From Anaerolineaceae bacterium (GTDB taxonomy: Bacteria; Chloroflexota; Anaerolineae; Anaerolineales; Anaerolineaceae): DNA of 64,000 bases. A program made the position numbers and the translations under genes. Shown piece by piece: positions 12,746 through 63,575 of this stretch. The first letter of the stretch is position 1; every line of letters begins with the position of its first letter. The notes beneath the pieces were generated by a model, which was not told where the DNA came from, made no database searches, and was given only the letters and a program-made list of their open reading frames with translations. Where the stretch lies: positions 1 through 64,000 of the forward strand of contig PABH01000072.1 in assembly GCA_002702705.1 (NCBI GenBank), written 5' to 3'.

Positions 12746-14265
12746 AAATTGCCATTTGTCAGATTAATACGATTACTGCCGATTTGGAGGGAAATGTCCA
12801 GCGCTGTTTGGATGCAGTAAACCAAACAATCCGTGATAAACCGGATCTAATCGTACTCCCCGAAATGGCAGTCTGCGGTCCATTTGCAATGGATATTTTG
12901 TTAGATTCAAGCTTTGTGAGTGCTTTGCAAACTGCTAATTTGGATTTTGCCTGGTTGAATCGATTTAATCCGCCCATATTATTTGGCAGCCTGATCGCCT
13001 CAGAAAAATCAATATCCAATCATGGCAATTTATTAAATTCGGCCTTGTTAGCTTCCAATGGAACCAATGAGATTGTTGCACAACAAAAGGTTCTGTGGGA
13101 TTTTGATATTCATCACGATTCCCGTTGGTTCTGTTCAGGAGAGATATCAAAAATTATCCGAATCAATAATACAAATATCCGACCTTTAATTGGTAAAGAT
13201 GTAATGAACTATTCGGATCTGGTATTTCCGGAAAACGAAAAAGAACCCGATTTAATTATTGCTTTACACAATGCTGTTTTTGCAAACCAAGATATTCAAG
13301 AAAAAATCGAACACCTGATGAAAATCCCTTATCCAAGTATCGTGGTCAATCAGGTTGGCGGCCATGATGGTTTGATTTTTGAAGGCCAGAGTCTTTTTAT
13401 TAACCCTCAAAAACAAAAATGTTCGGCATTAAAAAAATTCCAGACGGATACAAATTTTTTATCGTTCCCCAATACTGATTTTTTGCCAATCCAAAAAAAT
13501 ACACAGGAAGCAGATTGGTTAGAAGCAATCTGCCTTGGCATCAGAGATTTTGTTCACAAAAACAACCTGAAACACGTTTATTTGGGTCTATCCGGAGGAA
13601 TTGACTCTGCTGTTACTACTGTTCTGGCATGTCAGGCTTTAGGGCCAGAAAATATGACGGTTTTAAGTTTACCAAGCCGATTTAATGACCCTCGTTCTAC
13701 CATTTCAAGCCAGGAGTTATGTAATACACTCAACATAAATTTTCTCGAAATCAGTATAGAACCATTTTTTAATCTTTTTGAACATGAACTAAACACCCTT
13801 GCAAAAAATGAAAACGTTTTAGAAAATATTCAAGCCCGTTTACGTGCTGTTATCTTGATGGCCCATGTTAATTTTTACGGGGGATTGTTATTAAATACAA
13901 GCAACAAAACAGAACTAAGCCTTGGGTACGGTACATTATATGGAGATATGGCAGGAACCCTTTCTCCAATCGGAGATCTTACCAAACCGGAAGTATATCA
14001 ATTGGCGAGGTGGATTAACCGCAGTCAGGAAATTATCCCGGAGTTTATTCTCAACCGAAAACCATCTGCGGAACTGCGATTAAACCAGGTTGATCCTTTT
14101 GATTATCCGATCATCAGTCCTCAGATCGAGAATTATGTTCAAAACAATCAAAGCCCTCCAAGCATGCGTGCATCCGAACATAAGCGGCACCAATTTGGTA
14201 CTATTCTCAAATTGAGTCAGAAAACATTCGGTAATGGGCGTTTCATTCCGATTACAAGAAGGTAA
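12742..14265 (+). CDS. nadE: NAD synthetase with degenerate nitrilase/glutaminase domain
   Basis: A 507-residue two-domain protein. The C-terminal synthetase domain is intact: SGGIDS (284-289) ATP pyrophosphatase loop, NTSNKTELSLGYGTLYGD and SAELR. It would amidate nicotinic acid adenine dinucleotide to NAD. The N-terminal nitrilase-like domain keeps the triad Glu (E41 in LPEMAVCG) and Lys (K116 in QQKVLWDFD), but where the nucleophile motif ICED is expected the sequence reads IGKD (G151), so the catalytic Cys is missing. The enzyme should therefore depend on free ammonia. Start chosen at 12742 because the nitrilase fold begins MKIAICQIN. Confidence 0.85.
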   Translation: MKIAICQINTITADLEGNVQRCLDAVNQTIRDKPDLIVLPEMAVCGPFAMDILLDSSFVSALQTANLDFAWLNRFNPPILFGSLIASEKSISNHGNLLNSALLASNGTNEIVAQQKVLWDFDIHHDSRWFCSGEISKIIRINNTNIRPLIGKDVMNYSDLVFPENEKEPDLIIALHNAVFANQDIQEKIEHLMKIPYPSIVVNQVGGHDGLIFEGQSLFINPQKQKCSALKKFQTDTNFLSFPNTDFLPIQKNTQEADWLEAICLGIRDFVHKNNLKHVYLGLSGGIDSAVTTVLACQALGPENMTVLSLPSRFNDPRSTISSQELCNTLNINFLEISIEPFFNLFEHELNTLAKNENVLENIQARLRAVILMAHVNFYGGLLLNTSNKTELSLGYGTLYGDMAGTLSPIGDLTKPEVYQLARWINRSQEIIPEFILNRKPSAELRLNQVDPFDYPIISPQIENYVQNNQSPPSMRASEHKRHQFGTILKLSQKTFGNGRFIPITRR

Positions 14266-51289: not shown

Positions 51290-53305
51290 ATGTTTTTGTG
51301 GATGCGTAAGAATCAAAACGTAATTAATATTATTGTATTGATTGTAATCGCTTTGATTTGTTTTTTGCCATTAAGCAACCAAACAGGCTATTATTTAAAT
51401 GATTGGCATCCATTAGCAGGGAAACTAACGAATAAAAGCGTATATAGTTTGTGGTCGTTTGAAAGAAAAGGGGTAGGTTTCCTGTTTTCAATTACCTACC
51501 CAATCATACAAGATAACCATTTTATGTGGCAATTGTTTACAATTTCTTTGAGGCTATTGGGAGCAATAGGATTTTACTGGTTATTAAATTTGGTCTGGAA
51601 AAAAAATTCCTACTTTAATTTATCTGCAGCCATAATCTTTCTGGTTTATCCAGGCTTTATGCAGCAACCGATTGCCCTTACTTTTTCAAACCATTATATA
51701 GGATATGATCTTGCAATTTTTTCGCTTATATTCTCAATATTAGCTATTAAATCTCGTCCTTTACTCATCAAAATCATATTGATCGTCGTGGCTCTATTTT
51801 TACAACTGGGCTATTTATTCGATTACGAATATATGTTGGGGTTTGAAATCGTTCGATTAGTGCTGTTTTTATTTTTATTTGATTCTCCACGGTTACTCGC
51901 AATAAAGAACTTAAAAAAAGTTTTGCTAAATGGAGCTTTATATATTATTGGTCTATGTGCCTTTTTGTATTGGCGATTGTTTATTTTTGTTAGCTCTCGT
52001 CCTGCGACGAATATTGATTTACTCAAGGATAGATACATCAATAGTCCCATTGATATGGGAATTAAAATCAGTATAGAAATTATTCGTGACTTTATAGAAA
52101 CAGTTTGGCAAAGTTGGAGTGTACCATTTTACCAAACAGCCTCAAACACAGATCCTAAACATTTTATTATCTCCGTGTCGTTAGCCGTTGTGGCTGTAAT
52201 TATTTTTATTTTAACAATTAAATTTCTTAACCTTGAAAACAATAGTTCACCGATTACTGCAAATGAAAATAATAAAATACACTATAACGAATTTATTTGG
52301 GTTGGATTAATTGCGATTTTTGCAGCAATAATACCGGTAATTTTATCGAATCGAGAAGTAAAGTACAACTTACAAATGGACCGGTATACGCTACACGCAA
52401 CATTGGGGGTAGCGTTATTCATTACGGGATTGATTTTTAAATGGATTAACTTACACTCAAGAAAATATATTTTATTATTCTTATTGTTTCTTTCCGTAAT
52501 TTCTCATTACAACAATTCCCTAACATATGTTGAATGGTGGGAAAATCAAAGGACACTTTGGTGGCAATTATCTTGGCGAGCGCCGGACATAAAGGATGGT
52601 ACTCAAATTTTACCCTTATTACCTTTTGGAAGTCGGCTTCAAGAAGGCGCTGAAGCATGGGCACCGGTTAATGCAATATATAATCCCGAACCTTCGGAGG
52701 TTCCATTAATTACTGCAGATGTATTAAACGCCGAAAACATGGTTAATATCTATTTAAAAAACAAATCCATCGTCACATTTCGCGGTATTCAATATACCAA
52801 TGATTTTTCTTTACCTTTGTTAATTTCATACCCAGCAGGCGGTTCTTGTGCACATATTATTGATGGTGACCGAATGGAACTTTCCTATTATGATGAGGAA
52901 ATCATTTACCGCGCAGCTCCTTTTTCTCAAATCCAGAGAATTGATGTAAGTGCTTCACCACACATACCTCCTGCTAGCATTTTTGGAAAAGAACCGGAAC
53001 ATGACTGGTGTTATTATTATCAGAAAGCCAGTTTACTTCGCCAACAGGAAAACTGGACAGAAGCAAGCCAACTAGGTGATTATGTTCTTGAGCAAAACAT
53101 CTTTCCCGTTGATCAATCAGAATGGTTGCCATTCCTGGAAACCTATCTCATATTGAATAATGCAGAAAAAGCAGATCTGATCATCGCAAAAATAAAATCT
53201 GACACACCCACACTAGAAAATTTATGTGGTGTATGGAAGTATGAAAAACCTCACCTTAACCCTGATGTGATGAATAGTCTATGTGCAGAATTACCTAATT
53301 ATTAA
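51290..53305 (+). CDS. Polytopic membrane protein with soluble C-terminal domain (possible GT-C glycosyltransferase)
   Basis: 671 residues. About ten to twelve hydrophobic helices occupy residues 10-400 (first one NVINIIVLIVIALICFLPL), with an acidic extracytoplasmic first loop that includes YLNDWHPLAG. From about residue 410 a soluble part follows, with a TPR-like end (ASLLRQQENWTEASQLGDY, TYLILNNAEKADLIIAKIK). The overall shape resembles GT-C glycosyltransferases of the PMT type but I see no decisive motif. It may act with the upstream transferase. Confidence 0.55.
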   Translation: MFLWMRKNQNVINIIVLIVIALICFLPLSNQTGYYLNDWHPLAGKLTNKSVYSLWSFERKGVGFLFSITYPIIQDNHFMWQLFTISLRLLGAIGFYWLLNLVWKKNSYFNLSAAIIFLVYPGFMQQPIALTFSNHYIGYDLAIFSLIFSILAIKSRPLLIKIILIVVALFLQLGYLFDYEYMLGFEIVRLVLFLFLFDSPRLLAIKNLKKVLLNGALYIIGLCAFLYWRLFIFVSSRPATNIDLLKDRYINSPIDMGIKISIEIIRDFIETVWQSWSVPFYQTASNTDPKHFIISVSLAVVAVIIFILTIKFLNLENNSSPITANENNKIHYNEFIWVGLIAIFAAIIPVILSNREVKYNLQMDRYTLHATLGVALFITGLIFKWINLHSRKYILLFLLFLSVISHYNNSLTYVEWWENQRTLWWQLSWRAPDIKDGTQILPLLPFGSRLQEGAEAWAPVNAIYNPEPSEVPLITADVLNAENMVNIYLKNKSIVTFRGIQYTNDFSLPLLISYPAGGSCAHIIDGDRMELSYYDEEIIYRAAPFSQIQRIDVSASPHIPPASIFGKEPEHDWCYYYQKASLLRQQENWTEASQLGDYVLEQNIFPVDQSEWLPFLETYLILNNAEKADLIIAKIKSDTPTLENLCGVWKYEKPHLNPDVMNSLCAELPNY

Positions 53306-59170: not shown

Positions 59171-60817
59171 TTATTCGCCAGCATCCACAAATGATTCACT
59201 AACAATTTCTTGGGCTTCAGCCTGAATTTTCCTAAGATGTTCCATTCCAAGGAAGCTTTCAGCATAAATTTTATAAATATCTTCCGTGCCAGAGGGGCGC
59301 GCAGCAAACCATCCATTTTTGGTAGTCACTTTCAAACCACCAATATCTGCTCCATTTCCTGGTGCACGTGTTAATTTCGCTGTGATTTTTTCACCAGCTA
59401 AGTTTTGCGTTTTTATACTCTCTGGATTGAGTTGTTTTAATATCTTTTTTTGCCGGTCATTTGCCGGGGCGTCTACACGTTGATAAATTGGATCGCCATG
59501 TTTGGTTACCAATTCTTGATAAATCTCTCCTGGGTTTTTGCCAGTTTTTGCCAAAATCTCCGCAGCTAACAAATTCAAGATAATACCATCTTTATCGGTG
59601 GTCCATACTGTACCATCAAACCGTAAAAATGAGGCACCCGCACTTTCTTCTCCACCAAATCCAAACGCTCCAGAAAGCAAGCCATCCACAAACCATTTAA
59701 ACCCAACTGGCACTTCGACCAACTTTCGCCCTAAATCTGATGCTACTCGGTCAATCATTGAACTGGAAACTAAAGTCTTACCAATGCCAGTTGTATCAGG
59801 CCAGCCAGGACGATGTTGGAACAGATAATAAATAGCAACAGCTAAATAGTGATTCGGGTTCATCAGACCGCTTGTTCTGGTAACAATTCCATGCCGGTCA
59901 ACATCCGGATCATTACCAAAAGCAATATCGAACTTATCCTTCAATTGGATCAAGTTTGCCATCGCATACGGTGAAGAACAATCCATTCTGATTTTTCCAT
60001 CATGATCTGCAGTCATAAATGAGAACGTCGGATCCACCACTTTATTCACAACCGTAATGTCCAAACCATACATTTTTGCGATTTCTTCCCAATAATATAC
60101 TGCTGCGCCACCCATTGGGTCAATACCGATCTTAATCCCCGCTTCTTTAATTCGTTTCAGATCAACCACATTGTTAAGGTCATGAATGTATGGCTGCATA
60201 AAATCGTACGCTTTTACATTTTCCAGTTTTAGTGCGTGCTCAAATGGAACTCGTTTTACATCAAACAATCCATTTAATAGTATCTCATTTGCCCGAGCTT
60301 GAATTATATTGGTAATCTCTGTCCCGGCGGGACCACCACTCGGTGGATTGTACTTAAAACCACCATCTTGAGGTGGGTTGTGCGAAGGAGTGATAACAAT
60401 CCCATCCGCCAGATCCGTTTTTTTATCTTTGTTTCTTGTTAAAATAGCGTGAGAGATCACCGGGGTTGGTGTAAATGTTAAATTGGACTGATAAAAAACA
60501 GTCACCTGATTGGCAGCCAATACCTCAATTGCTGTTTTTAAGGCTGGTAAGGACAAGGCATGGGTATCCATCCCTATAAACAGCGTACCGGTAATCCCCT
60601 TATCTTTCCGATACTCACATAAAGCCTGGGTTACAGCCAAAATATGATCTTCATTAAAACTACGATCAAGTGATGTACCGCGATGACCAGATGTACCGAA
60701 GTTAATTAGTTGGCTTTTTATCTTTGGATCAGGTTTCTGAAAATATTCACTGATTAATTTTTTCACATCAACCAATTGATCTTTGGTCGCAGGTTTTCCA
60801 GCATTTGGGTCTATCAT
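59171..60817 (-). CDS. pgm: Phosphoglucomutase (alpha-D-glucose-phosphate specific)
   Basis: 548 residues of the large phosphohexomutase family. TSGHRG near the N-terminus, the active serine in [11 protein letters not shown], the metal loop [10 protein letters not shown], the sugar loop [12 protein letters not shown] and the phosphate loop [13 protein letters not shown] are all intact. I start at 60817 ([15 protein letters not shown]) after GAGGTGAGG. It converts glucose 1-phosphate and 6-phosphate, feeding glycogen, trehalose or surface sugars. Monocistronic. Confidence 0.93.
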
Positions 60818-61086
60818 GATCCTCACCTCATTTTCTAAGTACTTTAACTTAATTATAGACGATGTTTCCAAGAAAAAAAGTTTAACCTGTTCCTCATCAA
60901 AGAGATTCTAGGGTAATTCCCTATACCAAAATCCATCGTTAACCATTGACAAGAACCAACAAATGTCTGAAAATCGATTATAGACGCTTCTGCTATCGGG
61001 GAAATTATAGGAATAGAAACCTCGTCCCCACAACAAAATTCAATAGCAGATTTATTGAGTACTGTTTTCTTAAAAAGGAGAACCTG

Positions 61087-61828: not shown

Positions 61829-62953
61829 TCACAATGTCTTTATAAAACAGCGACGACGTTTATGTTGTCGTTTTTCATAATATTTCCACTGACCCTGAAC
61901 ATCGGTGTTCGTTTCTAATTCTGCATTCGTCTCAACAATTGTTATGCCTTTATTAATAAAAACTTGATTAATCTTATCCATCAAAACCGCATTGATCCCC
62001 TTCCCCTGATACTCGGATTTAACTGCAATCAAGTACAAATCTGCTCGATCATTCTTTTTTAAAGCACGTAATAAATAATACCACCCTAAGGGAAACAACT
62101 TCCCTTTTGATTTTTGAAGAGCAATTGATAATGAAGGCATCACGATCCCAAAAGCAATCATCTTATTATTTTCGTCTAAAACAACAGGTACAAATTCTGG
62201 TGAAATAAAACCAAAATACTGGTTAATATATGTTTCCATTTGTTTTTCAGATAGCGGTACAGTCCCAAACAAATGGCTATATTCATCATCTAGTAAATAA
62301 AATAATTCCTTGGAATATCTTAATAAATCTTTTTTATGATTAACTTCCAAAATATGTAAATTGTTTCTTTTTAAAACAATTTCAGCAGCCTTACTAATTT
62401 TTTCAATCGGCTTTTCGGGCACATGAATTTCATATTCCAGCCAGTCAATCTCTTTTTCATAACCAAGCTTCTTTAGATGTTCTGGATAGTATTCATAATT
62501 ATAAATCAATGCCAAAGTGCCCAACTCTTCAAAACCTTCAATAAGCATACCTTCCGGATCAAGATCAGTGAATCCCAAAGGACCATGAACAGCCTCCATA
62601 TTCAATGTGCGTGCCCAATCCTCAACTGTTTTTAATAAAGCTGCAGATACTTCTTCATCATTAATAAAATCAATCCAACCAAACCGAACATTTTTTTTAC
62701 CCCATTTTTGAACATATTTTGGATTATAAATACCTGCAATCCTACCAACAACTTGATTTCCACGATACGCAAGCCAATACCGTGCTTGAGCATCTTCAAA
62801 GGCGGGGTTTTTATCCCAATCTAATGTATTAAGTTCATCAAAATATAGGGGTGGCACCCAATATGGATTTTTATCATAAAGTTTTAGCGAAAAATCAATG
62901 AAAGTTCTTAATTGTTTCTTAGTGGTTACTTCTCTTATAATTACTGCCATCAT
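61829..62953 (-). CDS. GNAT-fold N-acetyltransferase-like protein
   Basis: 374 residues. The N-terminal half has FIDFSLKLYDKNPYWVPPL and VGRIAGIYN; the C-terminal GNAT-like half has FGIVMPSLSIAL and LIAVKSEYQGKGINAVLMDK, the Q-x-x-G-x-G/A acetyl-CoA loop. The double-length architecture is that of a family of uncharacterised bacterial GNAT proteins. Substrate unknown. Divergent from the OsmC gene. Confidence 0.75.
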   Translation of the reverse strand: MMAVIIREVTTKKQLRTFIDFSLKLYDKNPYWVPPLYFDELNTLDWDKNPAFEDAQARYWLAYRGNQVVGRIAGIYNPKYVQKWGKKNVRFGWIDFINDEEVSAALLKTVEDWARTLNMEAVHGPLGFTDLDPEGMLIEGFEELGTLALIYNYEYYPEHLKKLGYEKEIDWLEYEIHVPEKPIEKISKAAEIVLKRNNLHILEVNHKKDLLRYSKELFYLLDDEYSHLFGTVPLSEKQMETYINQYFGFISPEFVPVVLDENNKMIAFGIVMPSLSIALQKSKGKLFPLGWYYLLRALKKNDRADLYLIAVKSEYQGKGINAVLMDKINQVFINKGITIVETNAELETNTDVQGQWKYYEKRQHKRRRCFIKTL

Positions 62954-63057: not shown

Positions 63058-63080
63058 TACCCAATACAAAAGGAGAAAAA

Positions 63081-63575
63081 ATGGCAAAAGATAAACCATT
63101 GGGTTTCCGTGGAATTGAAGTACAAGCAGAAGCAAGCTCGCTTGAAAAATGGAAAAAATTAGTTATGGCAGGGCAACCAGAAACAGGTCAGGTTTTTTCG
63201 CTGGTAAGTGACGAGGGCGCTTACATGCCCGGTGGTGAGGGCACAGCGCCTACGCCGTTAACTTATTTTGTATCCGGAATGGCCCTTTGACTAATCTCTC
63301 ATCTTTCGCAGGTAGCGAAAAAAAGGAAATTATCCATTCAAAATGAAAAAGTATTGGTTAAAGCTCGTTTTCACGAAAAAGGTTCTGTATTAAAAGGAGA
63401 TGCGGAAGGTTTCTGTGATGGTTTTGAAATTCAAATTTATATTGATTCTGAAGAAGAACAATCTGCGATTTCAGAATTGATTCGGTTAGCCAGACAGATG
63501 TGTTTTACTGAAAAAGCACTTTTGGGAAACACACCAGTTGAAGTAAACGAGTTTATCAATCAGGGAAAGGATTAA
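63081..63575 (+). CDS. OsmC-family protein, candidate selenoprotein (Sec at codon 70, in-frame UGA)
   Basis: One open frame of 165 codons if the TGA at 63288-63290 is read through. Upstream: PTPLTYFVSGMAL; then UGA; downstream in the same frame LISHLSQVAKKRKLSIQNEK and VKARFHEKGSVLKG, which together form a complete OsmC/Ohr-fold protein of about 164 residues. In relatives this position holds the conserved redox Cys (SGMAxC). A hairpin with an AGGT apical loop lies 19 bases after the UGA, as expected for a bacterial SECIS. OsmC-like selenoproteins are known from marine metagenomes. Expected role: peroxide or thiol redox chemistry. Confidence 0.8.
63304..63320 (+). promoter_or_regulatory. SECIS-like hairpin for selenocysteine insertion
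   Basis: TTTCGC (63304-63309) AGGTA GCGAAA (63315-63320): a perfect six-base stem whose apical loop starts AGGU, the same as in E. coli fdhF (GCAGGUCUGC). It begins 13 bases after the UGA with the loop at +20, inside the usual spacing. The hairpin lies inside the coding frame. Confidence 0.7.

Follow-up and report, generated by a model that had tools for sequence, protein, structure and literature searches.

The DNA analyzed here, referred to as the window, is a stretch of 64,000 nucleotides on contig PABH01000072.1 of an Anaerolineaceae bacterium. Toward its end lies a frame of 164 residues that is read through one TGA taken as selenocysteine (Sec), the sole in-frame TGA between its ATG and its TAA (Table 1). 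An annotation program would cut the gene at this stop; here, it is read as a full selenoprotein gene. The encoded protein matched the Pfam family PF02566 (OsmC) with 48.2 bits against a gathering cut-off of 27.5, and the NCBIfam model NF041052 (OsmC_like_Se) over nearly its whole length with 126.3 bits against a curated cut-off of 95. In the six-frame search of the genome, the same gene scored 117.1 bits with NF041052. A previous reading of the letters alone (the sequence-only reading) had placed an in-frame UGA at the conserved redox Cys of an OsmC-type frame. The PF02566 match and the position of the UGA at codon 70 bear this out, as does the alignment with Cys homologues that it had proposed, in which family relatives without the TGA have a Cys codon (TGC or TGT) at this place. 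The motif at Sec70 is ULIS, and the fourth residue of the motif is Ser in 33 and Thr in 23 of the 56 distinct UGA genes described below.

Table 1. Coordinates of the predicted selenoprotein gene and its elements in the window
Feature	Coordinates	Strand	Basis
AGGAG resembling a ribosome-binding site, 5 nt upstream of the ATG	63071..63075	+	Sequence
Predicted OsmC-type selenoprotein gene, from ATG to the end of TAA	63081..63575	+	One in-frame TGA, TAA stop; Pfam and NF041052 scores
D44–E45 codons, conserved acidic pair	63210..63215	+	Alignment A1 (E45 in 54/54 rows, D44 in 53/54 rows)
In-frame UGA (predicted Sec), codon and residue 70, central helix 59–81 of the model	63288..63290	+	
SECIS hairpin uuucgc-AGGUA-gcgaaa, arms 63304–63309 and 63315–63320, apical loop AGGUA 63310–63314	63304..63320	+	
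C141 codon, second of the invariant redox residues (presumably the resolving Cys)	63501..63503	+	Alignment

The hairpin behind the UGA has a stem of six perfect pairs, a loop of five bases with G at the second position, a UGA-to-loop spacing of 19 nt, and a predicted folding energy of −9.0 kcal/mol. These values fall within the bacterial SECIS model, namely a loop of 3–9 nt, a stem of 4–16 bp, a G at loop position 1 or 2, 16–37 nt from the UGA to the loop, and an MFE of at most −7.5 (PMC13188914). The six-base stem and the bacterial spacing named in the sequence-only reading were thus correct, and its loop AGGU needs to be extended by one base to AGGUA. As evidence for a SECIS element, the folding of this hairpin alone is weak (z = −1.42, with 18 of 200 shuffles folding at least as well), and single-sequence folding was rejected as proof for this reason. 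When the peptide was recoded synonymously with the combined codon usage of the 56 UGA genes, all six pairs arose in the register of the window in about 1% of cases. A search at the Rfam gathering thresholds gave no match in the window, and Rfam may hold no bacterial SECIS family. Both strands of the window were also scanned for TGA-interrupted frames with at least 20 open codons before and at least 50 after the TGA and a hairpin whose stem had 5 bp or more and whose loop had an early G. The scan yielded the site at 63288 and one weak candidate at 13022 on the reverse strand. At the latter, the TGA is preceded by 29 and followed by 86 open codons and the 5-bp hairpin has the loop GGCGA; this candidate is probably a chance occurrence.

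The conservation of the hairpin was analyzed in 92 related genes, which were reduced to 68 distinct ones (56 TGA and 12 Cys) by dropping identical 180-base stretches around the codon. The window gene (L009) and the paralogues and distant Cys homologues L010, L011, L012, L046, L047, and L048 had been kept out of this set beforehand. All five core pairs were present in one register in 46 of the 56 UGA genes but in only 1 of the 12 Cys genes, whereas in 300 rounds of synonymous resampling in the fixed register, five core pairs arose in 2.0 of 56 genes on average and in 7 at most. The hairpin is therefore conserved far beyond chance. The earlier judgment that UGA and hairpin together are unlikely by chance holds through these relatives, but not by folding alone. 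With a free register, five core pairs were found in 56/56 UGA genes, a less discriminating count because 2/12 Cys genes also have them. GCG encodes Ala at residue +9 in 35 of the 43 TGA genes with this residue and in none of the 9 such Cys genes; among the other Ala codons of the TGA genes, its share is 270 of 890. A covariation table was made from the 53 genes sharing the register, with L021, L022, and L034 excluded for their other register. The pair at nt 16–28 after the UGA is kept in all 53 genes with five pair types, indicating covariation, and the pair at nt 17–27 in 52 genes with four pair types; the loop G at nt 21 is likewise found in 52. The pair at nt 14–30, which is the outermost of the window stem, is formed in only 16 of these genes and the pair at nt 13–31 in only 7, and in this alignment the conservation is carried by the inner five pairs. 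Within the near clade (the window and 35 named loci), the split was complete, with the hairpin in 26/26 genes after the UGA and 0/10 after a Cys codon; the Fisher values for this split are purely descriptive because related genomes are not independent.

The genome containing the window (G000; 5.9 Mb in 74 contigs) has the full Sec decoding machinery, whose presence the sequence-only reading had named as a check on its claim. The tRNA-Sec scored 72.4 bits (cut-off 47) and was also called by ARAGORN, and SelA, SelB, and SelD were found with 536.6, 377.2, and 361.8 bits, respectively. The SelD gene (L018, 1501–2499 on the reverse strand of G000:C22) has one in-frame TGA in the motif CAGU, and SelD is probably itself a selenoprotein, a second such gene in this genome. 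Among the family genomes carrying the OsmC-type gene, tRNA-Sec was found at E ≤ 1e-9 in 23 of 27 with the TGA form and in 0 of 5 with the Cys form. The four TGA genomes that have no clear tRNA-Sec (G532, G430, G452, and G515) all have SelA. In a more sensitive tRNA search, they gave 41–47 bits, which is the background level as judged from the second match in G000 (46.8 bits), with G430 just at the cut-off. Their tRNA-Sec may be either absent from the assemblies or diverged, and these genomes are counted against the explanation favored here. Four Cys genomes (G516, G519, G526, and G529; 84–98% complete) have neither SelA nor a tRNA-Sec over the cut-off, whereas the Cys genome G446 has SelA and a borderline tRNA match of 47.1 bits, and G293, outside the family, combines the Cys form with SelA and a tRNA-Sec of 64.8 bits. 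The Cys form is thus found in genomes that have the Sec machinery as well as in genomes that lack it.

A match over the NF041052 cut-off was found in 32 of 147 Anaerolineaceae genomes; 27 of these have one TGA, and 5 have Cys (TGC or TGT) at the codon. In the Anaerolineaceae genomes that have this OsmC protein, it usually occurs with Sec. In a phylum sample of 400 genomes, 27 were over the cut-off, 26 with exactly one TGA and one (L024) with Cys, a count that omits three below-cut-off matches with one TGA (G183 and G215, both partial, and G284). OsmC-like selenoproteins had been described in the sequence-only reading as known but rare; they are known, and "rare" has to be softened in view of the UGA in 26 of these 27 members. 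Named genomes were scanned with the close alignment A2, the first alignment of 54 sequences being too diverse for scanning. The scan gave 35 loci (25 TGA and 10 Cys), of which 32 carry the label Chloroflexi or that of one of its subgroups, two that of Spirochaetes, and one that of Syntrophomonadaceae. Each of the 36 sequences in alignment A3 matches NF041052 at E ≤ 0.001. Bellilinea caldifistulae GOMI-1 (L100), which has the UGA form, is a named strain in which the protein and its substrate are directly testable. Three further OsmC-type genes in the window genome (L010, L011, and L012) are Cys-type without an internal stop and lie below the NF041052 cut-off. The plasmid collection gave three distant matches (27–28% identity), all annotated as OsmC family protein.

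Nothing was found that separates the window protein from the family NF041052, "OsmC-related (seleno)protein." As here, two surveys describe OsmC/COG1765 or pfam02566 proteins with Sec: three OsmC-like selenoproteins from the Sargasso Sea in 2005, for which a predicted bacterial SECIS was shown (PMC1088965), and five from the GOS survey (PMC2398784). Those proteins come from marine metagenomes and have the motif UxxT (PMC1088965, PMC2398784); the window protein differs from them in its ULIS. The gene is not new in kind, since NF041052 exists and OsmC selenoproteins have been in print since 2005 (PMC1088965). Among open-licence papers, no experimental study of OsmC selenoproteins was found, and none on Anaerolineaceae; the previous statement that none is characterized in this group stands within that literature, and NCBI already has a curated family model.

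The AlphaFold2 model of the window protein has an OsmC fold (mean pLDDT 84, pTM 0.80), with C141 where two later helices meet. The best match among solved folds was the OsmC-like protein 3cje from Jannaschia sp. CCS1 (Z 17.1, rmsd 2.1 Å over 134 residues), which is also the closest solved protein by sequence (2e-17). Both redox positions align between the two proteins, but 3cje has Cys where the window protein has Sec, and their identity is 21–24%. Another fold match was 1ml8 (Z 10.6), which we take to be Escherichia coli YhfA (COG1765). Matches to the S-adenosylmethionine synthetase fold (Z about 9) were rejected as shared topology only. The rmsd values from Foldseek (9–16 Å among the matches listed) were set aside and the VIA alignment was used instead, because residues 46–55 of the monomer model form a loose loop (pLDDT under 50). 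Only E45, P59, Sec/Cys70, and C141 are invariant over the 54 relatives in alignment A1, which excludes L039–L041 and in which most rows start after residue 10. Sec70 and C141 align with both Cys residues of three solved chains, one OsmC-like and two Ohr.

From these features, the following catalytic cycle is proposed. SelB acting on the hairpin just behind the UGA would deliver Sec-tRNA-Sec, made with SelD and SelA, and Sec would be inserted at position 70. The selenolate of Sec70 would then attack an oxidized substrate, most likely an organic hydroperoxide, to give a selenenic acid, which C141 would resolve as a selenenylsulfide. This bond would finally be reduced by a dithiol of the cell, for example dihydrolipoyl or thioredoxin. 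The two-residue redox cycle is likely and is well supported because Sec/Cys70 and C141 are both invariant. Hydroperoxidase activity is plausible by analogy with the superfamily, and the chances that a hydroperoxide is the true substrate appear evenly balanced.

The protein may instead be a selenoprotein but no hydroperoxidase, acting as a Sec/Cys reductase of another substrate (a persulfide, a disulfide, or a selenium/sulfur species) at a site unlike that of Ohr or OsmC. Ohr requires Arg19 and Glu51, and the Arg of OsmC sits in a Gly-rich loop (PMC5962072). In two aligned Ohr chains (6mjn and 3eer), the Glu of the NPEQ motif, which corresponds to Glu51 of Xylella fastidiosa Ohr because it lies ten residues before the Cys, is matched by L60 of the window protein. 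Residues 46–58, taken as the Gly-rich loop from the PGGEG motif, contain no Arg, so that the catalytic Arg of OsmC proper has no counterpart there. In the columns that A1 covers (54 rows, most beginning after residue 10), no Arg is kept in at least 85% of the rows, and none is among the four invariant residues. The scores with two Ohr models are far below their cut-offs (35.4 against 240 and 30.6 against 88.85 bits). The Leu at the Glu position and the absence of Arg from residues 46–58 weaken the hydroperoxidase part of the proposal. On the other hand, the window protein has the fold and the two redox positions in common with Ohr (1zb8/1zb9, 6mjn, and 3eer). The near clade also keeps R10 in 35/36 and Arg or Lys at position 25 in 36/36 members (K25 in the window protein), in an N-terminal part that lies outside the Ohr alignments, and an N-terminal Arg could serve catalysis. 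Reduction of a substrate other than a hydroperoxide is a real but less probable alternative. We have high confidence in the explanation of the locus as a gene for a selenoprotein of the OsmC/Ohr/YhfA superfamily.

The remaining alternatives concern the UGA itself. A plain premature stop, either in a broken Cys gene or through a TGC or TGT misread as TGA, would suit the rather long branch of the window protein, the longest (0.52) of its nine-row Sec group and a point against the favored explanation. However, TGA occupies the same codon in 26 other genomes of the family, which makes a sequencing error very unlikely; the hairpin is kept, and the genome has the machinery to decode it. Protein constraint also continues past the UGA: in comparison with six relatives, pN was 0.14–0.19 before the UGA and 0.22–0.30 after the SECIS, with a pS of 0.69–0.93 that is near saturation, and both halves of the gene are therefore under constraint. 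Comparison with the relatives thus refutes a premature stop in practice, and we regard it as very improbable. A general sense codon (e.g., Trp) without selenium is scarcely credible, as nothing beyond the open frame favors it and it is refuted by the 7 of 45 window ORFs of at least 200 amino acids that end at TGA, by Cys rather than Trp in the relatives without TGA, and by the tRNA-Sec. The UGA and its hairpin, the Sec machinery, and the conservation of these features together can each be read from the genomes themselves, and the gene is almost certainly a selenoprotein gene.

A tree was built without the Sec/Cys residue and rooted at the midpoint. The Sec/Cys label requires six changes on it (5–6 over the bootstraps), and the midpoint root leaves the direction of the deeper changes unsettled. 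One Cys gene (L051, genome G446) has TGT at the codon and an intact hairpin with 5/5 core pairs. It is sister to a TGA gene (98/91) within a clade of six TGA genes and L051 (100/99), and it probably reflects either a Sec recently replaced by Cys or an error of assembly; the hairpin is thus not always paired with a UGA. For other proteins, SECIS-like remnants downstream of Cys codons have been described before (PMC1794560). The Cys genes L092–L095 are nested in a 24-row group that is otherwise TGA (100/95), and no SECIS, SelA, or clear tRNA-Sec accompanies their Cys codon. This set of closely related Sec and Cys genes, in some of which the hairpin is retained and in others lost, is naturally suited to testing SECIS models and to studying how Sec is converted to Cys. 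We tentatively suggest that the Chloroflexota genes may form a Sec-dominated OsmC branch without the Arg and Glu of Ohr/OsmC but with the Sec70–C141 pair and the acidic D44–E45, in which reversions would be traceable stepwise (L051; L092–L095), although this broader picture is rather doubtful. Two placements on the tree cross phylum labels. L097, labeled Syntrophomonadaceae, is a UGA gene on a 3.9-kb contig that falls among Chloroflexota genes, through either mis-binning or transfer. L110 and L113, from Spirochaetota records, are Cys members with long branches inside an otherwise Chloroflexota clade, a position that suggests transfer.

The gene neighborhood was analyzed by searching the 35 related loci for matches to 23 ORFs from around the gene, at a threshold of 1e-15. 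Neither adjacent gene, a GNAT (61829–62953) and an FMN oxidoreductase (63578–64645 in contig coordinates, running past the window end), had a match in these loci at this threshold. Two other neighbor ORFs matched 2 loci and 1 locus of the 35, respectively, and the largest clusters of shared neighbors among the related loci span 6/35. Because these clusters are small, no partner gene was assigned, and no conserved neighbor in the 35 loci points to a substrate or a reductant. Elsewhere in the window, the 671-residue ORF at 51290–53302 on the forward strand had no Pfam match at 1e-5, and a phosphoglucomutase gene is present whole at 59171–60871.
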